A stretch of 64,000 nucleotides of DNA, taken from positions 558,001 through 622,000 of the forward strand of contig NZ_CP147919.1 of assembly GCF_039645985.1 (NCBI RefSeq), written 5' to 3'. The translations under genes and the position numbers were made by a program. The notes under the pieces were generated by a model. It did no database searches, was not told where the DNA came from, and saw only the letters and a program-made list of their open reading frames with translations. This document shows, piece by piece, positions 47,008-59,976 of the stretch; position 1 is the first letter of the stretch, and each line of letters opens with the position of its first letter. The stretch comes from Sulfurimonas sp. HSL3-7. Lineage in GTDB: Bacteria; Campylobacterota; Campylobacteria; Campylobacterales; Sulfurimonadaceae.

Positions 47008-47742
47008 TTACAGGCTGTCGTCGATCACAGAGCGGTCTGAAAATTCCTCTTCGTTCTGTTCGTAGCGTTCGCCGAACCGAAAAAGCAGGTAAAACCGCGC
47101 CGTAAGACCTTTGTTCGTCCCGCCGTAGACACTGTAATGCGTCTCCTCTTCTATCGTAGTGCCGTCATAGTCGCGGTATCTCTCTCCTCCGAAAAGAAGG
47201 GAGCCGTGGTAACCAAGATCGGCCGCCAACGCGACGGTGCGTCCAAGCATGACATTGACGCCCGTCGCTGCGGCAAGACCGATGCCGTAGCTGTTCTGTC
47301 TTCTGATGTTTGAGGAGCTTGACATATGTTCGAACTGGACATTGATGCGGGGCCCGACCCAGAATCGGACATATCTCGCATGGTAGACGCTGAAGGCGAA
47401 GGTGTTGACAATGTTGTATTTATGTTTGGAAAAACGCTCCGAATAGAGTCGGTTGCTCGATTCAAGTTTGCTCAGGGTGTACTCGAAGTTCAAACGGTAG
47501 CTGAAATCTCTGTTTTGGCCGATGTTGGAGTCGAAGACGAACCCAAGCCCCGCACTCGGTTCATAATGATAGGTGGCATCGCTGAGGTTGACATTGCTGT
47601 AGTTGAGGCGTTCGGTCTCTGTAATGGTGACGGGTACGCTGACACCCATTCCCGCCGCTTTTAGAAGTATCGGAGTGAACAGCAAAAATGAGAACAGCAC
47701 TCTATTGAACGGTTCTATTGCAGATGCCCTGGAGAGATTCAT
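47008..47742 (-). CDS. Outer-membrane beta-barrel-like protein, paralog A
   Basis: 244 residues with a signal peptide (VLFSFLLFTPILLKAAG). The mature part shows alternating aromatic and polar residues, with FRYRLNFEYTL-like strands and GLTARFYLLFRFGE near the C-terminus. It shares this ending, the AGMGVxVPxxI start and DSNIG with paralog B 147 bases upstream on the same strand, showing tandem duplication. The final Phe normally seen in OmpA-type barrels is absent; the protein ends in an acidic tail (SVIDDSL), so it could be periplasmic or a small barrel with a tail. Function unknown. Confidence 0.7.
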   Translation of the reverse strand: MNLSRASAIEPFNRVLFSFLLFTPILLKAAGMGVSVPVTITETERLNYSNVNLSDATYHYEPSAGLGFVFDSNIGQNRDFSYRLNFEYTLSKLESSNRLYSERFSKHKYNIVNTFAFSVYHARYVRFWVGPRINVQFEHMSSSSNIRRQNSYGIGLAAATGVNVMLGRTVALAADLGYHGSLLFGGERYRDYDGTTIEEETHYSVYGGTNKGLTARFYLLFRFGERYEQNEEEFSDRSVIDDSL

Positions 47743-47889
47743 ATGGAAGTTCCTGTTATATTTGTAGGCGTATTATAGCTGTTTTCAGCATACTTGTATT
47801 GCAGTCAAATCACCATAGAAGAGTTAGACGACGTTTTAAGGAGAAGTGCCGGTGAGAACCGGAAAGCGGCCTGAGAGCCACTCTTTTTG

Positions 47890-48546
47890 TCAAAGGCTGC
47901 TGTCGACAGCGGATTGAGGTGCAGGTCGATCGAAGGTCTCGCCGAAACGGAAGAGGACGTAGAAACGGGCAGTCAAACCGTTCACGCTACCGTCGTAAGT
48001 GTCGTCATCTAGGTCATTTTCCCAAGCCCCCGCGACATAGGCGAAACGGTAGTCAAGATCGGCGCCGAGCGATACGACAGGGCCGAGGTTGACATTGACA
48101 CCGACCGCCGGCGCGATACCCAGTTCAAAAGCCGCTTCGGTATAATCATAAGGATCATCGGTACGCCAGTTCCATGCGATGTTGACTCTCGGACCTACCC
48201 AGAGTCTGACTACTTTGGTGCGCAGCACACCGAATCCAAAGGTATTAACGATGTTAAATCGGGCAAAATCTTCTTCATAGCGGCTGTCGGTCGTATCTAT
48301 CTTCGCATTCATATATTCCAGACCCAGGCGGTAGTTGAAGAGCCTGTCCTTGCCTATATTGCTGTCAAAAGCGACACCAAAACCTGCAGATGGGCTATAG
48401 TCTGTATCGACATCACCGTTAGAGTCGTTGGTTACAGAAGAGCTGTTGGCGACACTGATCGGAACATAGACACCCATGCCTGCCGCACTTGCAACCATCG
48501 GTGCTGCCAGTAAAAACGACAGTGCCAGTTTTTTACATATATTCAT
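47890..48546 (-). CDS. Outer-membrane beta-barrel-like protein, paralog B
   Basis: 218 residues with a clean signal peptide cut after MVASAAG. Features shared with paralog A include DSNIGKDRxFNYRL, FxIVNTFxFxV, RxWVGPRVNI, GLTARFYVLFRFGE and a final SAVDSSL. It is the better preserved copy. The pair lies beside a SHOCT protein and an OmpR-type regulator, which hints at envelope-stress regulation. Substrate and role are unknown. Confidence 0.72.
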   Translation of the reverse strand: MNICKKLALSFLLAAPMVASAAGMGVYVPISVANSSSVTNDSNGDVDTDYSPSAGFGVAFDSNIGKDRLFNYRLGLEYMNAKIDTTDSRYEEDFARFNIVNTFGFGVLRTKVVRLWVGPRVNIAWNWRTDDPYDYTEAAFELGIAPAVGVNVNLGPVVSLGADLDYRFAYVAGAWENDLDDDTYDGSVNGLTARFYVLFRFGETFDRPAPQSAVDSSL

Positions 48547-50628: not shown

Positions 50629-52233
50629 ATGCGTTCAGGCGTGAAAACCCCAAGTTATATCTACCGATTTACACTCTTTATACTCCTTTTTGCGACCTTT
50701 TCTTTGATGGGGTACAAACTCTTCGTGCTTGAGTATGAGCTTGCCGATCTGATACCGACGGTGGGTTACGATGTGGAGGTGAACATGCAGGTCAGCGGTC
50801 ACGGCGATAAAATGTCCATCTCGACCTATCTGCCAATCGGTACTGCGCATCAGAATATTTCCGATGAGAGAAGTGCGCCGGATATCTTCACGACGCAGAT
50901 CACTGTTGATGGACTCAACCGCATCGCTTCCTGGCAGGCACCTGCCGTTTCGGGTACGCATATCATCCGTTACAACTACTTTGTAGAGGCAGAACATGTC
51001 ATCTACGACATTGATAGAGATGTCCCTATTTCGGAGAAACTGCCCGATTATCTTCAGCCTTATCTCGCACCGCAAGAGGGCATCCAGGTGAATGATCCTC
51101 TGATCGAGCAGACGCTTCATGAACTTTTCGGCGAGCAGAAGCCTGACACCTATGAAGCACTGCGGACTATTCACCACTATCTTCAAAACGAGTTTCAGAC
51201 CCGAAACTTTTCGGGTTTTACCGATGCTTTGACCGCCCTGAAACTTAAAGAGGCCAGCTGTAACGGCAAAAGCCGGCTCTTTGTCGCATTGACGCGCAAG
51301 TTGGGGCTGCCCTCTCGTCTTGTCGGGGGGCTGATTCTGAATCAGGGGAGTAAAAAGACCTCGCACCAGTGGGTTGAGGTCTATGTCCGCGGCCACTGGA
51401 TACCGTTCGATACGATCAACAACTATTTTGCGGAGATCCCCAAGAACTACCTCAGACTTTACTACGGCGATAAGGTGCTTTTTAAGCATACGACCAATAT
51501 CAACTTTCAGTACATGTTCCACATCACCAAAAAACTGGTGCCGAGAAAAGAGATGAAAGAGGCGATGTACGCTTCACCGCTCAATGCCTACAATATGTAC
51601 AAGATCTTTGAAAGCATCGGTATCTCGCAAAACCTGCTCAAGATCATTTTGATGATTCCGCTCGGTGCTCTGGTCATTGTCATTTTCAGAAACGTCATCG
51701 GCATTGAGACCTTTGGTACTTTCCTGCCGGCGTTGATTGCGACAGCAGCGCGAGAAACCGGTCTGATGTGGGGTCTAATCGCATTTTTGGCGATCATTAT
51801 GGTCTCAGCCATGATTCGAAGATTTCTCGATTACCTGCAGCTGCTTCACTCGCCGAAGATGGCGATCATGCTCACCGTCGTCGTCATCTCGATGCTGCTG
51901 ACGACGATGGTAGCCGTCCAAACCTCTTACCTGGATCTGGCCCACGTCTCGTTATTTCCGATCGCCATTCTGGCAATCACGGCGGAACGTTTTGCGATCA
52001 TTCAGGAGGAGCAAGGGTTTCTGAAAGCCCTGCGTATCTCATTTTTTACGGCTGTTGTGATCACGGCTGCCTATGCGGTAATGAGTTCGCTTTTCATGCA
52101 GAGTCTCTTTATCGCTTTTCCGGAACTGCTCTTCTTTCTGATCGTGCTGAATCTCTGGCTGGGTAAATGGGTCGGGATGCGCCTTTCGGAGTTTATCCGT
52201 TTCCGTAAACTAATCTTCAAGGCAAAATCATGA
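50629..52233 (+). CDS. Transglutaminase-like protein fused to 7 transmembrane helices (copy 1)
   Basis: 534 residues. A signal-anchor helix (12-33) is followed by an extracytoplasmic domain and a transglutaminase-like core, then seven helices from about residue 340. Although the family is named 'inactive transglutaminase fused to 7TM', Cys211 (EASCNGKSRLF), His246 (KKTSHQWVEVYV) and Asp261 (HWIPFDTIN) form an intact triad here. The core should face the periplasm and could cut or crosslink peptide or amide bonds. It overlaps the ATP-grasp gene by 4 bases. A closely related second copy starts at 55189. Confidence 0.82.
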   Translation: MRSGVKTPSYIYRFTLFILLFATFSLMGYKLFVLEYELADLIPTVGYDVEVNMQVSGHGDKMSISTYLPIGTAHQNISDERSAPDIFTTQITVDGLNRIASWQAPAVSGTHIIRYNYFVEAEHVIYDIDRDVPISEKLPDYLQPYLAPQEGIQVNDPLIEQTLHELFGEQKPDTYEALRTIHHYLQNEFQTRNFSGFTDALTALKLKEASCNGKSRLFVALTRKLGLPSRLVGGLILNQGSKKTSHQWVEVYVRGHWIPFDTINNYFAEIPKNYLRLYYGDKVLFKHTTNINFQYMFHITKKLVPRKEMKEAMYASPLNAYNMYKIFESIGISQNLLKIILMIPLGALVIVIFRNVIGIETFGTFLPALIATAARETGLMWGLIAFLAIIMVSAMIRRFLDYLQLLHSPKMAIMLTVVVISMLLTTMVAVQTSYLDLAHVSLFPIAILAITAERFAIIQEEQGFLKALRISFFTAVVITAAYAVMSSLFMQSLFIAFPELLFFLIVLNLWLGKWVGMRLSEFIRFRKLIFKAKS

Positions 52234-53138
52234 TGAACCTAAAACGATTGTACACTGCCCTTAAAACGGACATAAAAAAAGCAGACAGTGTATTGGGGAT
52301 GAACAGGCGCAATCTGGGGTATGTCTATCCCAGCAATCCGCGAAAATATTTTGAATTCGCAAATAACAAGCTGCTGACGAAAAAGACCCTGGAGGCTGCT
52401 GAACTGAGTGTTCCTGAGACATTTCTTTCCGTCAGCTATTTTTATGAGCTGACAGAGATGGAAGAGAAGTTGCGCCGGCTGAAGAGTTTTGTCATCAAAC
52501 CCTCTTCGGGCAGCGGGGGCAGCGGTATCGTCGTGATCAGCGACTATCAGGAGGGTGACTGGCTCTCAGTCAGCGGCAAGACCTATACCTTTGCCGATCT
52601 AAAAAAACATATTGCCGATATCATCTTCGGCGTCTACTCTTTCGGGCTTAACGACACCGCGATCATTGAAGAACGGGTCGTTCAGAACAGCCTGATCTCC
52701 GAATTGAGTCCGCAGGGCCTGGCGGACATCAGGGTGATCAACTACAAAGGGAGCAATATCAAAGCGATGCTCCGCATTGCGACGATTGCCTCTGATGGAC
52801 GGGCCAATCTGCACCAGGGGGGCGTCGGCGTCGCGATTGACCTTGAGAGCGGCAAGACATTTTCTGCCCAGGTGCATGGCGAAAATATTACACACCATCC
52901 TGACACCGGTATTGCGCTCTTGGGTGTGACAATCCCCTCCTGGGATGCGCTTCTGCGATTGAGTGAAGCGGCTGCCAAGGCCATTCCGCTTGGTTACCTG
53001 GGTATAGACATCGCACTCAGCGAGAGCGGCCCGGTTATTTTGGAAGTGAATGCACGGCCGGGGATAGAGATCCAGAATATCTGCGGGGAAGGGATGCGCG
53101 AGCTTCTCTGTACAATCGATGCCGGGAAAAGTATATGA
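52230..53138 (+). CDS. ATP-grasp ligase (alpha-L-glutamate ligase-like)
   Basis: 302 residues (start at either of two adjacent ATGs). The ATP-grasp fold shows VIKPSSGSGGSGIVVI (nucleotide loop with Lys), EERVVQ (adenine contact), and EVNARPGIEIQN (Mg ligands). It belongs to the group called alpha-L-glutamate ligase-like or sugar-transfer-associated ATP-grasp. Such enzymes form amide or peptide bonds using ATP in the cytoplasm. It is flanked by 4-base overlaps with the transglutaminase-7TM and TPR genes, which ties all three to one pathway. The substrate is unknown. Confidence 0.82.
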   Translation: MMNLKRLYTALKTDIKKADSVLGMNRRNLGYVYPSNPRKYFEFANNKLLTKKTLEAAELSVPETFLSVSYFYELTEMEEKLRRLKSFVIKPSSGSGGSGIVVISDYQEGDWLSVSGKTYTFADLKKHIADIIFGVYSFGLNDTAIIEERVVQNSLISELSPQGLADIRVINYKGSNIKAMLRIATIASDGRANLHQGGVGVAIDLESGKTFSAQVHGENITHHPDTGIALLGVTIPSWDALLRLSEAAAKAIPLGYLGIDIALSESGPVILEVNARPGIEIQNICGEGMRELLCTIDAGKSI

Positions 53139-55045
53139 GAAACAGGACTGTTCAGAAGATTACTGAAAGTGTCATTCCCGTCATTCTGCTCTTAAGTGGG
53201 ATATTCTTTATACTGCTCTTTGTCCAGTACCGTGCAGGGCAGGACGCCGAGCAGGCGCACCATATCCATATCACGGCGGAGACCTCTACGGAGGAGGCTT
53301 CGAGAAACGGGATGAACAACGTCATGGAAGTGGACTTCAGTGACGACGCTCGTATCCTGAAAGCCGAAGCATTGATAAAGAAGGGAATGCTGGCAGAAGC
53401 GGAAAGTATCTATTTCCGTATTTTGGCGAAAGAGCCTTCTGCACAGATCCACAACTGGCTGGGCATGCTCTACCTGAAAGAGGAGAAATACAACAAGGCA
53501 GTCGTCTCGTTTACCAATGCCCTCAAGTTTAACAGACGCTATTACCGTGCCCGTTACAACAGGGCCATCGCATACAGTGCGCTGGAAGAGTTCGACAAGG
53601 CCGCTTCGGATTACAAAGAGGTGATCCGCACCGTAGATGCCCATGCAAAGAGTCATTTCAACCTGGGCCTTCTTTACTATAAACAGAACGATTACATGTC
53701 TGCTATAGATGAGTTTGAGAGAACAGTCGAATTGAGCAGCGGTGATATAAAGGTCAAAGCGCTTTACATGCTCGGTAAAAGCTATACCAAACTCTCTGAG
53801 CCGAAAAGAGAGGAGGCGGAAGCCGCTTTTACAGCGGCGATCCGGCTGAAACCTAATCATGTTGCTTCGCGTCTGGCCCTGATCGATCTGCAGTATCCGG
53901 AAGATGAAGAGGGGTACAAGAGCCGGCTGGAACAGCTGGAGCGGCTGGCCGCTCTCGAAGCTGACAATATTGACGTCTATCGTGCCATGGCCAATGTCTA
54001 TCTGGCACAAAATAAAGAATCACGGGCTTTAAGAAGCCTGCAGGAAGGGCTGCTGCACGAGCCGGATAATGTAGCACTTCAATTTGAGGTGATAGAACTT
54101 CTGATGGCATTGAAAAAAGAGAGCGAAGCAATCGCAAGCCTGGAGAAGATACTGACGGTTGACCCCTCCAATACAAGAGCCTACTTTTTACTGGGTCAAC
54201 TCTACTATCTTCAGGGCAGCTACGATGCTTCGCTGGAGGCGTACAACAAGATGCTGGCGATAAAAAAAGAGGGCTCGGTCGAACTCTGGAACAACCTGGG
54301 GCTGCTCTATGCAAAGATGGAACGTTTTGAAGAGGCTAAAAAGGCCTATATGCGAGCTCTGAAACTCAGTAGCAGCGATCCGCAGGCCTATTACAATCTC
54401 GGTCTTTTGGCGTTAGGACAAGGAGACCGTAATAAGGCACAACACTATTTTGAAGAGACGATCCGTCTGCGCCCCGACTATCCTGAGGCATATCGCAACC
54501 TTGCACAGCTCTTTACCGAGCAGAAGCAGTATGCCAAAGCGGTCGATACCTATTTGAAAGTGCTTGAATATATTCCTGATTCGTCTCAGGTCAAGCTTGA
54601 TCTTGCGGTCTGCTATACAAAATTAAAGGCGTACGACAAGGCACAGGCGATCTATGAAGAGATCATAGAGAAAGACAGCAGCTATTTTACGGCGTGGTTC
54701 AATGTCGGTTTAGTCTACTACCGCCAAAAAGAGTATGAGCGTTCGAGAGAAGCGCTTGAGAAGGCCGTGGCTTTGGAACCGGAAGATGCAAATGCATTCC
54801 GTGCTTTGGCAAAAACCTACAGGGCATTGTCTCAGCACGGTAAAGCGATTGAAATTTTAAAGAAGCTGCTCGAGCAGAATCCTTCCGACATTGAAATACG
54901 TCTGGATTACGCGAGGTCATATTACAGGGCAAAGATGAGGGACATAGCCTTGAGCGAATACAAAAAAGTGTTGAGCCTGGACCCTGAAAACAGTACCGCA
55001 AAAAGGATGATAGAAAAGATTGAGGGGAAAAATGGGGCAAATTAG
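53135..55045 (+). CDS. Membrane-anchored TPR protein (copy 1)
   Basis: 636 residues. An N-terminal signal-anchor (VIPVILLLSGIFFILLFVQY) is followed by a tail, and from about residue 70 by at least fourteen TPR-type repeats of 34 residues, with the usual small residues at positions 8 and 20 (for example FNLGLLYYKQNDYMSAIDEF). It should sit in the periplasm as a scaffold anchored to the inner membrane. It overlaps the ATP-grasp gene by 4 bases and has a paralog at 56787. Confidence 0.83.
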   Translation: MRNRTVQKITESVIPVILLLSGIFFILLFVQYRAGQDAEQAHHIHITAETSTEEASRNGMNNVMEVDFSDDARILKAEALIKKGMLAEAESIYFRILAKEPSAQIHNWLGMLYLKEEKYNKAVVSFTNALKFNRRYYRARYNRAIAYSALEEFDKAASDYKEVIRTVDAHAKSHFNLGLLYYKQNDYMSAIDEFERTVELSSGDIKVKALYMLGKSYTKLSEPKREEAEAAFTAAIRLKPNHVASRLALIDLQYPEDEEGYKSRLEQLERLAALEADNIDVYRAMANVYLAQNKESRALRSLQEGLLHEPDNVALQFEVIELLMALKKESEAIASLEKILTVDPSNTRAYFLLGQLYYLQGSYDASLEAYNKMLAIKKEGSVELWNNLGLLYAKMERFEEAKKAYMRALKLSSSDPQAYYNLGLLALGQGDRNKAQHYFEETIRLRPDYPEAYRNLAQLFTEQKQYAKAVDTYLKVLEYIPDSSQVKLDLAVCYTKLKAYDKAQAIYEEIIEKDSSYFTAWFNVGLVYYRQKEYERSREALEKAVALEPEDANAFRALAKTYRALSQHGKAIEILKKLLEQNPSDIEIRLDYARSYYRAKMRDIALSEYKKVLSLDPENSTAKRMIEKIEGKNGAN

Positions 55046-55188
55046 AGATGAAACGGATTTCTAGGCCTCCGTATTGACTCTCTCACCCTGATGTTCCGGC
55101 CCCTTTCTTGGCTGACAGCGCTCTTTCTGTAATCCTTCTGTAATAAAATAAAAGTATTATCAGCGCATGGAAAACAATAAAGCACACC

Positions 55189-56790
55189 ATGCGTAAAGGT
55201 GTAAGGTCATCTAGCTATCTTTATACGTCAGCCCTACTGCTGCTCGTAGCTACCACTTTTTTTGTAATGAGCTACAAGCTCTTTTTTCTCGACTATAGAT
55301 TTGCTGACCTGATACCGACGGTTGGTTACGATGTCGAGGTCAATCTGCAGGTCAGCGGTCATGGTGATGCGATCTCACTCTCTACCTATCTGCCCGTCAG
55401 CTCAACGCATCAAAGCATTTCCGATGAGAGAAGTGCCCCGGACCTCTTTACGACAGAGATCGCTGTGGAGGGGCTTAATCGAATTGTCTCGTGGAAGGCG
55501 CCTTCTGTATCAGGGACGCATATCATCCGTTACAGCTACTTTGTGGAACCAGAGCATTCCATATATCTGCTTGAGAAGGGGATGCCGATACAGAAGGTTC
55601 CTGCCTATCTGCAGAGGTATCTGGAACCAGAAGAGGGTATTCAAGTCAACGACCCTTTGATTGAAGAGACTATTCATCGACTTTTCGGCGATAAGAAGCC
55701 CAAAACCTATGAAGCACTGCGCACCATACATGACTATCTCCAAAACGAGTTTGAGAACCGCAACTTTTCAGGTTATACCGATGCGCTGACTGCCTTGAAA
55801 CTGCAGGAAGCAAGCTGTAACGGCAAGAGCCGTCTCTTTGTCGCACTGACGCGCAGGCTTGGTCTCCCTTCGCGTCTGGTCGGGGGTCTGATCCTGCATC
55901 AGGGGAGTAAAAAGACCTCTCACCAGTGGGTCGAGGTCTATGTGCTCGGCCATTGGATCCCTTTCGATACTGTCAACAACAACTTTGCGGAGATTCCCAA
56001 AAACTACCTTCGTCTCTATTACGGCGACAAGGTACTTTTTAAACACAGCCCCAATGTCAATTTTCAATACATGTTTCATGTCACTAAAAAACTGGTGCCC
56101 CGAAAAGAGCTTAAAGCAGCGATGTACGCTTCACCGCTGAATGCCTTTAATTTGTACAAGATCTTTGAGAGCATCGGTATCTCGCAAAACCTTCTTAAGA
56201 TCATCCTGATGATCCCGCTCGGCGCACTGGTCGTTGTTATCTTCAGAAATGTCATCGGGCTGGAGACCTTCGGGACCTTTCTGCCGGCACTGATTGCCAC
56301 GGCGGCACGTGAAACAGGGCTGTGGTGGGGTCTTCTCGGCTTTATGTTCATTATTTTACTCGCGGCAGGGGTACGGAAGGTGCTCGACCATATGCAGCTG
56401 CTGCATTCGCCAAAAATGGCGATCATGCTGACGATCGTCGTCATTGCGATGTTGCTTATGACCATTTTCGCGGTGCAGTCATCGCTTTTTGACCTGGCAC
56501 ACATCTCTCTCTTCCCGATCGCGATCCTGGCGATCACGGCGGAACGTTTTGCTATCGTACACGAGGAGCAGGGGCTCGTCAAAGCCCTCCGCATCTCTTT
56601 TTTCACGCTGATCGTGATTATCGCCGCCTATGTTGTGATGAGTTCGCTCTTTATGCAAAGCCTGATCATCGCCTTCCCGGAACTGCTGCTCTTTTTGATC
56701 GTACTGAACCTCTGGCTGGGTAAGTGGGTCGGTATGCGTCTTTCGGAATTTATCCGGTTTCGGAAGTTGCTCTTCAAGGAACGGTTGTGA
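55189..56790 (+). CDS. Transglutaminase-like protein fused to 7 transmembrane helices (copy 2)
   Basis: 533 residues, colinear with copy 1 and nearly identical around the active site: Cys210, His245 and Asp260 are kept. Differences cluster in the first 45 residues and the periplasmic loop at 125-170. A 9-codon reading frame (55167-55196) runs into its start codon and could affect translation, though this may be chance. No second ATP-grasp gene follows; the TPR gene starts in the GTGA overlap. The two copies may process related products or act together. Confidence 0.82.
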   Translation: MRKGVRSSSYLYTSALLLLVATTFFVMSYKLFFLDYRFADLIPTVGYDVEVNLQVSGHGDAISLSTYLPVSSTHQSISDERSAPDLFTTEIAVEGLNRIVSWKAPSVSGTHIIRYSYFVEPEHSIYLLEKGMPIQKVPAYLQRYLEPEEGIQVNDPLIEETIHRLFGDKKPKTYEALRTIHDYLQNEFENRNFSGYTDALTALKLQEASCNGKSRLFVALTRRLGLPSRLVGGLILHQGSKKTSHQWVEVYVLGHWIPFDTVNNNFAEIPKNYLRLYYGDKVLFKHSPNVNFQYMFHVTKKLVPRKELKAAMYASPLNAFNLYKIFESIGISQNLLKIILMIPLGALVVVIFRNVIGLETFGTFLPALIATAARETGLWWGLLGFMFIILLAAGVRKVLDHMQLLHSPKMAIMLTIVVIAMLLMTIFAVQSSLFDLAHISLFPIAILAITAERFAIVHEEQGLVKALRISFFTLIVIIAAYVVMSSLFMQSLIIAFPELLLFLIVLNLWLGKWVGMRLSEFIRFRKLLFKERL

Positions 56791-58715
56791 AGACGAGTAT
56801 ACAGAAGTTTACCGAAAGTATTATCCCCGTCATACTTCTGCTTTGCGGTATTTTTTTTCTCCTGGTTTTTGTTGAATACCGGGCAAGTCAGGAGGCTGAA
56901 CACACCACGATGATCTATGTCTCGCTGCAGAACCCGGCGGAAGCGGTGCCGGAGAACGAGAGCAGCACCCTCTACGAAGATGATTACAGTGAAGACCCCC
57001 GTATCTTACAGGCACAGGAGCTGATCGCAGACGGTCAGTTTGAAAAAGCGGAGGCCGTCTACTTCAGTGTTCTGGCAAAAGAGCCCTCCCCGCAGATCCA
57101 CAACTGGCTGGGAACGCTCTACATGAAACAGGAGCTCTACGACAAGGCGGTGGTCTCGTTCTCCAATGCTTTGCATCTTAATAGCCGCTACTACAAGGCC
57201 CGCTACAACCGGGCTTTGGCCTATAGCGCCCTGGACGAAGAACAACAGGCGATCAGCGACTACCAGGCGGTTATCCAGGATTTCGACGAGCACGTCAAAA
57301 GCCATTTCAACCTGGGACTGCTCTACTACAGGCAAAAAGAGTACCGTAACGCCATTGATGAATTTAAGCGGACGATAGCACTCGGCAGCGGCGATACAAA
57401 AGTAAAAGCGCAATATCTTTTGGGCCGATCGTATACCCGGCTCCTCCCCTTACAGACGGAACTGGCAGTAAAAGCATTCAACGAAGCGATCCGTCTCAAG
57501 CCCGACCATATCGCCTCGCGTCTGGCACTGGTGGAGTTGGCCTACCCGAAAAATGAAGAGGGGCACAATAAGAGACTCGAAGCGCTTGAGGTGATGCTGA
57601 AGCTTGAACCGGACAACGTTGCGATCTATCGGGATGTCTCCGAGGTCTACCTTGCACTCGGCAAACCTGCTCTCGCGCTTAAAACGCTGCAAAAAGCGCT
57701 GCTGCATGAGCCCAGCAATATGGATCTGCAGTTTGAGGTGGCCGAAGGGCTGATGCGCCTGTCGCAAGTGCAGGCGGCTATTGCACAGGTCCAGGAGATC
57801 TTGACCATAGAGCCGGAAAGTACAAAAGCCTACTTTTTACTGGGGCGTCTTCATTACGTGCATGGTGATTTTGAGGCATCCCGCCTTGCGTATAACAAGC
57901 TTCAGACACTGAAACCGGAGGGCTCGCCTGAGCTTTGGTATAACCTCGGCCTGCTTTATACGAAGATGCAGCGTTACGACGAGGCGGAAGTATCGTATCG
58001 AAACGCACTGCGCATGCGCAACAATTACCCTGAGAGCCATTACAACCTGGGTCTTATTGCGCTGAAACAGAAAAAATATACGGAGGCGATCGGCTATTTT
58101 GATCAGGCCGTCAAACTGCGTCCGGCGTACTACCAGGCCTATTACAACCTTGGGATCGTCTACGCCAGGCTAGGCCGGGAGCAAAAGACGATCGATGCCT
58201 ATAAAAAAGTACTGCAGATCAAACCGGATTATGTGACGGCCAGGCTGAACCTCGCTGTCCGTTACGCAAAAATAAAAGCTTATGCCAAAGCGCAGCAGAT
58301 CTATGAAGAGGTACTGGCAAAGGACGACAGCTATTTCACTGCCTGGCTGAACCTCGGTCTGGTCCACTATCAACAGAAGCAGTACAGGCAGTCACTCGAA
58401 GCATTGGAAAAGGCAGTAGCGCTTGACCCCGAAAATGCGAAAGCGTACCGGGCCCTGGCAAAGAGCTACAGTGCATCGAGGATGCATAATAAAGCGAATA
58501 CCATCTTGCGCGAGCTGCTAGACAAGAACCCTTCCGATGTTAAGACACGGTTGGCGTATGCCCGTTCGTACTACCGCGCCAGAAAGCGCAATACCGCTTT
58601 GCGGGAGTACAACAAGGTTTTGAAACTGGACCCGGACAATACAGTCGCGAAGAAGATGATCAAAAAAATTAAAATCAAAAAAAGGAAAACAAGTGTATCG
58701 AAACAGAGTATTTAA
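56787..58715 (+). CDS. Membrane-anchored TPR protein (copy 2)
   Basis: 642 residues from GTG 56787, overlapping the previous stop as GTGA; a longer reading from 56724 would run 21 codons into that gene and lacks the anchor at its start. The N-terminal anchor (IIPVILLLCGIFFLLVFVEY) and TPR array follow the copy 1 layout and share many repeats (KSHFNLGLLYY, YFTAWLNLGLVHY). It ends in a Lys-rich tail (IKKIKIKKRKTSVSKQSI) that overlaps the barrel gene by 23 bases. Confidence 0.83.
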   Translation: MKTSIQKFTESIIPVILLLCGIFFLLVFVEYRASQEAEHTTMIYVSLQNPAEAVPENESSTLYEDDYSEDPRILQAQELIADGQFEKAEAVYFSVLAKEPSPQIHNWLGTLYMKQELYDKAVVSFSNALHLNSRYYKARYNRALAYSALDEEQQAISDYQAVIQDFDEHVKSHFNLGLLYYRQKEYRNAIDEFKRTIALGSGDTKVKAQYLLGRSYTRLLPLQTELAVKAFNEAIRLKPDHIASRLALVELAYPKNEEGHNKRLEALEVMLKLEPDNVAIYRDVSEVYLALGKPALALKTLQKALLHEPSNMDLQFEVAEGLMRLSQVQAAIAQVQEILTIEPESTKAYFLLGRLHYVHGDFEASRLAYNKLQTLKPEGSPELWYNLGLLYTKMQRYDEAEVSYRNALRMRNNYPESHYNLGLIALKQKKYTEAIGYFDQAVKLRPAYYQAYYNLGIVYARLGREQKTIDAYKKVLQIKPDYVTARLNLAVRYAKIKAYAKAQQIYEEVLAKDDSYFTAWLNLGLVHYQQKQYRQSLEALEKAVALDPENAKAYRALAKSYSASRMHNKANTILRELLDKNPSDVKTRLAYARSYYRARKRNTALREYNKVLKLDPDNTVAKKMIKKIKIKKRKTSVSKQSI

Positions 58716-59976
58716 AGGATTGACGGGACCGTTGATGGTCGCCGTTCTGGCGCAGACGGCTGCCGCGCAAAGTGAGGATGAAGGCTTTTCAGCATTCCAG
58801 GAGAAGGTGACGGTCAAGAAGAAAAAGAAGAAGAAAAAGCTAGAAAAACATCTTTTTGACGGTTATGCAGCAACCGGGCTCGGTTATGACAGTAACCCTT
58901 ACCTGACACCATCGAGCTCCTATCTTGATTATAGTGCCGACCCGATTACCCCACCGACGATCAACCCGGATGTGAAGTCGGGGATGTTCGTTCCCCTCTT
59001 TTTACGAGGCGATTACGAATACCGTTATTCACAGGATGTACGGTTGCTTTCGGAGGTCAAGTTCAGCGGTAAATATTTTATTGACAGCACGTTAAATAAT
59101 GCGAACCAGTACAAGTCGGAGCTCTCGGGAGGGGTCCGTTTCAGATTCAACAAATACAAGCGCGAGGTTAACCGCCTTGATCTGAAGGCTTTTGTGGGCA
59201 ATGTCTACGAGATCTATGTCGATCATGACGACGGCGAACTCAAAGTGACCGCAAGCGGGGACCAGTCCAACCGTTACCAGTATAAAAAAGCGGGCGCCGA
59301 AGCCGTTTACAAATACGATTTCAAAAAGGTCGATTTTAAGGTACGCGGACGGTACGAATACCGTGATTATGAGGACCCTGATACCTGGGCACCCCTTGAC
59401 CACACCTATACGCGTCTGAAACTTCAGGGAGGATACCAGTTGACGAAAGCGCTGCATCTGGGTGCTTACTACGAGTTCAGGATGCGCGATTACACCGACC
59501 GAAAATCTTACCAGATCGAGCAGGACGGGCTTAATATCAACCTTTCGGGACCGGCGGGGGTGGTTTACACCTATAATGACCTTAAACTCTTCGGTAACTA
59601 CCGTTTGACCAAAAACTATCGAATGAAGTTGGATTATCTTGCTTCTTTACGACAGGATGACAATCAGGGCTACAGCGACTATCTCTACCAGCGTGTCACC
59701 TGGGTCAACAAATATCGCTTCAGCAAGCAGCTACGTGCCGCATTGAAGTTGAGTTATCATCTTTATGATTATAAAAATACATATGCCTATAACCAGTTGA
59801 CGACGTTGGATAAATTGGAGGCTTCCGGGTACAAGGCCTACCTCAATACCAAATACAGTTTTTCAGAGAGTTGGGTCGCCGACCTGGACCTGATGTACCG
59901 TCAGGAAGATTCGACGGATGAGCGTTATGCGTATGAAGAGACGGTCGCAATGGCGATGTTGAAGTACCGTTTTTAA
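58693..59976 (+). CDS. Outer-membrane beta-barrel protein of the transglutaminase/ATP-grasp locus
   Basis: 427 residues, GTG start at 58693. A signal peptide (LTGPLMVAVLAQTAAAQ) is followed by an acidic patch and an unbroken run of eight lysines (about residues 42-49), then GYAATGLGYDSNPYLTP and many amphipathic beta strands with Tyr/Arg alternation, ending in LKYRF with the C-terminal Phe recognised by the Bam machinery. About 14 to 18 strands fit the length. With the TPR proteins it resembles export channels of polysaccharide systems that pair a TPR scaffold with a barrel. The cargo is unknown. Confidence 0.78.
   Translation: MYRNRVFKGLTGPLMVAVLAQTAAAQSEDEGFSAFQEKVTVKKKKKKKKLEKHLFDGYAATGLGYDSNPYLTPSSSYLDYSADPITPPTINPDVKSGMFVPLFLRGDYEYRYSQDVRLLSEVKFSGKYFIDSTLNNANQYKSELSGGVRFRFNKYKREVNRLDLKAFVGNVYEIYVDHDDGELKVTASGDQSNRYQYKKAGAEAVYKYDFKKVDFKVRGRYEYRDYEDPDTWAPLDHTYTRLKLQGGYQLTKALHLGAYYEFRMRDYTDRKSYQIEQDGLNINLSGPAGVVYTYNDLKLFGNYRLTKNYRMKLDYLASLRQDDNQGYSDYLYQRVTWVNKYRFSKQLRAALKLSYHLYDYKNTYAYNQLTTLDKLEASGYKAYLNTKYSFSESWVADLDLMYRQEDSTDERYAYEETVAMAMLKYRF

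Follow-up and report, generated by a model that had tools for sequence, protein, structure and literature searches.

A conserved transglutaminase-7TM, ATP-grasp, TPR and outer-membrane barrel operon in Sulfurimonas, a possible trans-envelope variant of the Rlo system

The Rlo stress system of Pseudomonas aeruginosa, encoded by rloABC, consists of a secreted retropepsin (RloA), a transglutaminase-7TM (TG-7TM) protein whose transglutaminase is inactive (RloB) and an ATP-grasp protein (RloC) (mBio 2025, PMC12239564). RloA, which has a positively charged channel, cleaves polyglutamate in vitro, and the effects of losing RloA are suppressed when rloB or rloC is deleted (PMC12239564); on the simplest reading, RloB and RloC therefore work before this step, making or delivering something for RloA to process. 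Mutants in rlo have cell-shape, cell-wall-antibiotic and osmotic phenotypes, which the authors discuss in terms of peptidoglycan homeostasis, and RloB and RloC affect antibiotic tolerance and biofilm (PMC12239564). By sequence comparison, rloABC is the closest characterised relative of a six-gene locus at positions 50629-59976 of the window, the 64,000-nucleotide stretch of the Sulfurimonas sp. HSL3-7 chromosome analysed here (NZ_CP147919.1, positions 558,001 to 622,000). The genes of this locus form a conserved four-gene operon that has been duplicated in part; the operon encodes, in order, a TG-7TM protein, an ATP-grasp ligase, a tetratricopeptide-repeat (TPR) protein and an outer-membrane beta-barrel. 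With a probability of roughly 0.4, it constitutes a trans-envelope variant of Rlo, in which the product of the ligase would be passed by the 7TM domain, processed by the transglutaminase and exported or anchored by the TPR protein and the barrel. A literature search found no paper on this TPR/barrel variant.

The new type and the canonical Rlo loci share their core. Over its full length the TG-7TM protein is homologous to the canonical RloB of the window's family (hhalign 100%, E 3e-47, 490 columns), and a homologous ATP-grasp gene follows in the same order, its product 38-39% identical to the canonical ones; on the NCBIfam RloB model NF052267, whose cut-off is 900 bits, the scores are 141-156. 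The differences lie in what surrounds this core and in the active site. The new type keeps Cys-His-Asp, whereas the aligned canonical RloB proteins of the window's family have no triad and score weakly or not at all on PF01841. RloA adjoins RloB in 14 of 14 canonical loci but was found in none of the 20 new-type loci, in searched stretches of 3.8 to 21.6 kb, several of them cut by contig ends. Conversely, the TPR and barrel genes of the new type occur in 0/14 canonical loci, and in the window the TG and TPR genes are duplicated. One genome, G061, carries both new-type and canonical loci, and one type therefore does not simply replace the other. Divergent RloB-like genes form a third set (L102-L107, L116); they have RloA genes nearby and neither TPR nor barrel.

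Relatives of the operon were collected by a scan of genome contigs, neighbourhood analysis and a sample of 369 genomes belonging to the same class as one of the gammaproteobacterial relatives. They are present in 19 other genomes (20 with the window's) from Campylobacterota, Gammaproteobacteria, Nitrosomonadales and one 'Deltaproteobacteria' metagenome-assembled genome. The ATP-grasp gene is found in 20/20 loci, the TPR gene in all 19 testable loci and the barrel gene in 16 of the 18 testable ones; the untestable loci, L021 and L032, are cut by contig ends, and apparent frameshifts in draft contigs break some open reading frames (ATP-grasp in L022, TG in L100). Because the same set recurs in other genomes, it is not a chance assembly, and the association that a preliminary description had proposed for the window extends well beyond it. 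The operon is nevertheless rare, since among the 369 genomes there are 8 with a tight relative (4 already known from the contig scan) and one, G431, with a more distant one. In G431 the two core proteins form a single open frame of 838 amino acids (aa; L101:6475-8991, on G431:C24), with Transglut_core at 170-263, 7TM at 338-528 and ATPgrasp_ST at 556-823. This fusion indicates that the ligase and the membrane protein are partners and that the C-terminus of the 7TM domain is cytoplasmic. The fusion gene is followed by one for an 809-aa TPR protein; a recognisable barrel was not found there. In trees the Campylobacterota proteins are nested within proteobacterial diversity with modest support (81-83), and lateral transfer is plausible.

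The flanking genes differ between lineages, the recurring ones encoding response regulators, GGDEF proteins and TPR_6-type (lipo)proteins. Genes of the last family lie close to the operon in five genomes, and in several Gammaproteobacteria one or two TPR_6/YfiO-like (lipo)proteins are encoded directly upstream of TG-7TM (L022:222-2057, L024:2459-4279, L098:1673-4641, L100:11740-15124). A divergent gene for a protoglobin-GGDEF diguanylate cyclase adjoins the operon in two closely related genomes (L026:8407-9534, L025:1-828), and GGDEF-related proteins are also encoded nearby in L101 and L099; from these neighbours a link to cyclic di-GMP is possible.

Could the transglutaminase domain stand in for the missing retropepsin? 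TG-7TM-1 (50629..52233, + strand, 534 aa; PF01841 7e-19, PF14402 4e-49) has a predicted topology of an N-terminal transmembrane segment, a periplasmic beta-domain, the transglutaminase core and then the 7TM_transglut domain. Its triad is Cys211-His246-Asp261 (codons 51259-51261, 51364-51366 and 51409-51411, +). In TG-7TM-2 (55189..56790, +, 533 aa; PF01841 9e-20, PF14402 5e-51; E for PF01841 is thus about 1e-19 in both) it is Cys210-His245-Asp260 (codons 55816-55818, 55921-55923 and 55966-55968, +). These are the only two PF14402 genes in the window's genome. The three residues are invariant across 14 aligned new-type proteins, all of which match PF14402 strongly and PF14400 weakly, and the Cys and His motifs are present in all other new-type proteins. 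The triad is intact in the new type, and catalytic competence is predicted. The TG model matches the transglutaminase-like structure 3ISR (Foldseek, E 6e-14), which is annotated as a putative cysteine protease. In the three genomes checked (the window's own, G000; its congener G003; and G004), no secreted RloA was found genome-wide. The only retropepsin of the window's genome is a cytosolic RimB without signal peptide, encoded beside RimK (L041), and the lone G003 match is a RimB-like frame of 154 residues, likewise beside RimK. The missing RloA and the intact triad together suggest that the transglutaminase domain does the processing.

The RimB-RimK pair of the window's genome (G000:C1:2421010-2422251) adjoins a succinylglutamate-desuccinylase-like gene and is also conserved in G003 (L040). 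Such pairs, an alpha-L-glutamate ligase with a cytosolic retropepsin, share the ATP-grasp superfamily with the ligase of the operon, but they have no membrane, periplasmic or outer-membrane partner and in the window's genome occupy a separate locus. The operon's own ligase (52230..53138, +, 302 aa; PF14397 3e-69) is cytoplasmic and RloC/RimK-like, and is the one strong PF14397 ligase of the genome. It scores 259 bits on TIGR02291 (alpha-L-glutamate ligase-like), below the cut-off of 314, and its nearest solved structures are RimK-type L-glutamate ligases and cyanophycin synthase. By analogy with these enzymes, its substrate is likely an amino acid and probably glutamate.

TPR-1 (53135..55045, +, 636 aa) and TPR-2 (56787..58715, +), both matched by TPR families, each have a single N-terminal transmembrane anchor (segment 8-35 in TPR-1) that is conserved in the TPR alignment, and their arrays are predicted to be periplasmic. 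The barrel protein (58693..59976, +, 427 aa) has a signal-peptide-like N-terminus, a Lys-rich linker and a terminal Phe; its AlphaFold model has 16 strands, with a predicted local distance difference test score (pLDDT) of 77 and a predicted template modelling score (pTM) of 0.76. These predicted topologies fit the span of cytoplasm, inner membrane, periplasm and outer membrane given in the preliminary description. Foldseek matches of the barrel are generic porin-type (porins, MOMP and AlgE included), and a Protein Data Bank sequence search with the barrel profile gave no match, also among the solved exporters AlgE, PgaA and BcsC. The window barrel is weakly similar to the exopolymer-associated barrels TIGR03016/EpsL, and EpsL matches are found in 3 of 12 barrels of the family (best 3.6e-9). 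This similarity, together with the anchored TPR protein, suggests export or surface anchoring. The AlgK/AlgE, PgaA and BcsC exporters likewise pair a periplasmic TPR with an outer-membrane barrel, but the new operon has no glycosyltransferase-type synthase, and its TPR protein carries an inner-membrane anchor.

The TPR protein and barrel might instead be the export stage of an exopolysaccharide pathway whose other genes lie elsewhere, with the ATP-grasp enzyme adding amino acids to sugars. The Pfam name of PF14397 ('sugar-transfer associated') fits such a role, as do the polysaccharide/PEP-CTERM associations of EpsL and TIGR03016 and the protoglobin-GGDEF gene that adjoins the operon in a pair of related genomes. 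Around the operon, however, where flanking genes were annotated in part, no recurring family resembles a polysaccharide pathway, and derivation of the TPR and barrel genes from an unrelated polysaccharide operon, a concern raised in the preliminary description, finds no echo in flanks that change from lineage to lineage. Polysaccharide decoration or export is improbable.

In a trans-envelope variant of Rlo, the cytoplasmic ligase would act where the TG-7TM protein faces the cytoplasm and add amino acids, glutamate being the probable one, to an acceptor or a growing peptide. The TG-7TM protein would pass the product to the periplasm or couple its synthesis to its passage, and the periplasmic transglutaminase domain may then cut, transfer or cross-link it, replacing RloA in its processing role. 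The TPR protein, anchored in the inner membrane, would bridge the periplasm to the 16-stranded barrel, which would export or anchor the product; in the window, two TG and two TPR copies would share one ligase and one barrel. A more specific version is rather doubtful: a dedicated Gram-negative pathway for an ATP-grasp-built polyamino acid, such as poly-alpha-glutamate, that an active periplasmic transglutaminase would process or cross-link and that would leave through the TPR protein and barrel to become a polymer of the cell surface. Canonical Rlo would then be the form of this chemistry that stays confined to the periplasm. The PgsBCA/CapBCA poly-gamma-glutamate synthase, also a ligase with a polytopic membrane protein and a secreted polyamide, is proposed as an analogy only, and its ligase is Mur-ligase-like whereas the ligase here is of the ATP-grasp type.

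The duplication in the window covers part of the operon. The DNA identity of TG-7TM-1 and TG-7TM-2 is 78% over 1.5 kb and their protein identity 79%, TPR-2 is 55% identical to TPR-1, and ligase and barrel are single. The first-half ligase gene overlaps both neighbours (ATGA), whereas TG-2 meets TPR-2 directly (GTGA), with no second ATP-grasp gene. G003, a genome of the same genus (99% complete), has only the first half (TG, ATP-grasp, TPR) between the same flanking genes as in the window. In trees the window's TG-1 groups with the G003 protein (support 97/98) and TPR-1 with the G003 TPR protein (100/100), while TPR-2 falls outside that pair (95/88); from this branching, the duplication probably predates the split from G003.

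Several observations weigh against the trans-envelope reading. No barrel was detected in G003, at the locus or elsewhere in the genome. G003, with the first half only, has probably lost TG-2, TPR-2 and the barrel, and a barrel is therefore not strictly needed, which weighs against a strict need for export. The association between triad and RloA absence is perfect, but all of the new type falls in a single clade, so that the association represents one evolutionary event and not many. The inward face of the window barrel, estimated from strand alternation, has 36 K/R against 20 D/E, as expected for anionic cargo, but a positive interior is not universal, about half of the family being near neutral, and a uniformly positive lumen as the sign of a polyanion substrate was rejected as not general in the barrel family. 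The TG-7TM model is of medium confidence (mean pLDDT 63), its membrane part scoring lowest, with low to medium confidence. A relationship between the 7TM domain and PgsC/CapC, suspected from a similar GxxxxGxxxP(A/G)LIA stretch, was also rejected: a five-sequence CapC profile scored 14.9 in hhalign against 14.1 for shuffles (standard deviation 2.5, maximum 20.2). Comparison with a single PgsC, a Bacillus subtilis sequence confirmed as PF14102, gave E 0.06-0.11, and RloB-family frames among the top matches of a CapC hidden Markov model against 1658 open reading frames (E about 0.5-1) are not evidence. One open frame from Campylobacterota (L063, G041:C35:21276-22187; 1085 aa) has two CapC (PF14102) domains.

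The case of G003 would suit a role in envelope maintenance without export. The ligase would modify a cell-wall precursor or envelope protein, the targets of the transglutaminase would be proteins of the periplasm or the stem peptides of peptidoglycan, and the TPR protein and barrel would connect the wall with both membranes, aiding osmotic tolerance as in P. aeruginosa. The phenotypes of the rlo mutants described above point the same way, peptide-cutting proteins of the transglutaminase fold are common (3ISR itself is called a putative cysteine protease), and in Shewanella more vesicles are released when an inactive-TG-7TM gene is disrupted (PMC12096838). A dedicated barrel of 16 strands, kept in 16 of the 18 testable loci and partly akin, if weakly, to exopolymer barrels, nevertheless exceeds the needs of a tether, and the ligase resembles the glutamate-adding RimK/RloC family; envelope maintenance is somewhat unlikely. 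The absence of the barrel from G003 and the failure to find one in G431, where TG, ATP-grasp and TPR stay, could also mean that TPR and barrel are an unrelated, Slam-like device for protein secretion or surface assembly that travels with the TG/ATP-grasp pair. Both TPR proteins have TPR_Slam matches, though generic TPR models score higher. The tight gene overlaps, the same order in distant genomes and the joint duplication of TG and TPR in the window speak against such a passenger, which is very unlikely.

The gene calls themselves agree with the preliminary description: six + strand genes in the order Tgl-7TM, ATP-grasp, TPR, Tgl-7TM, TPR and barrel, supported by Pfam and AlphaFold. Four of the junctions overlap, by 4, 4, 4 and 23 bases, and the fifth is a gap of 143 bases. 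This non-coding gap (55046..55188) separates the two operon halves. For TPR-2, the GTG at 56787 was chosen over an upstream GTG at 56724 because it aligns with TPR-1; the barrel gene also starts with GTG, and the 23-base overlap is the one with TPR-2. A convergent GDSL hydrolase gene overlaps the barrel gene by 4 bases, and the operon therefore ends there. No sigma-70 consensus match lies in the gap, but the promoter scan is uninformative, with fewer sigma-70 matches than in shuffles; Rfam gave no match over 20 kb of the window. Elsewhere in the window (47008-48546, -) is a tandem pair of related small outer-membrane-barrel-like genes (244 and 218 aa, both products ending in DSL), of which one has no Pfam match. 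Of the interpretation in the preliminary description, the gene association and the compartments hold, while a peptide product exported or fixed at the surface stays conjectural; the relation to rloABC, the intact triad, the absence of the retropepsin and the duplicated form of a four-gene operon had not figured in it.

If the locus is a trans-envelope variant of Rlo, it predicts that RloBC-type proteins yield an amino-acid product that needs periplasmic processing and that, here, would be able to reach the surface. The G431 fusion points to how the two core proteins are oriented and paired, and the variant could allow the product to be harvested from outside the cell.

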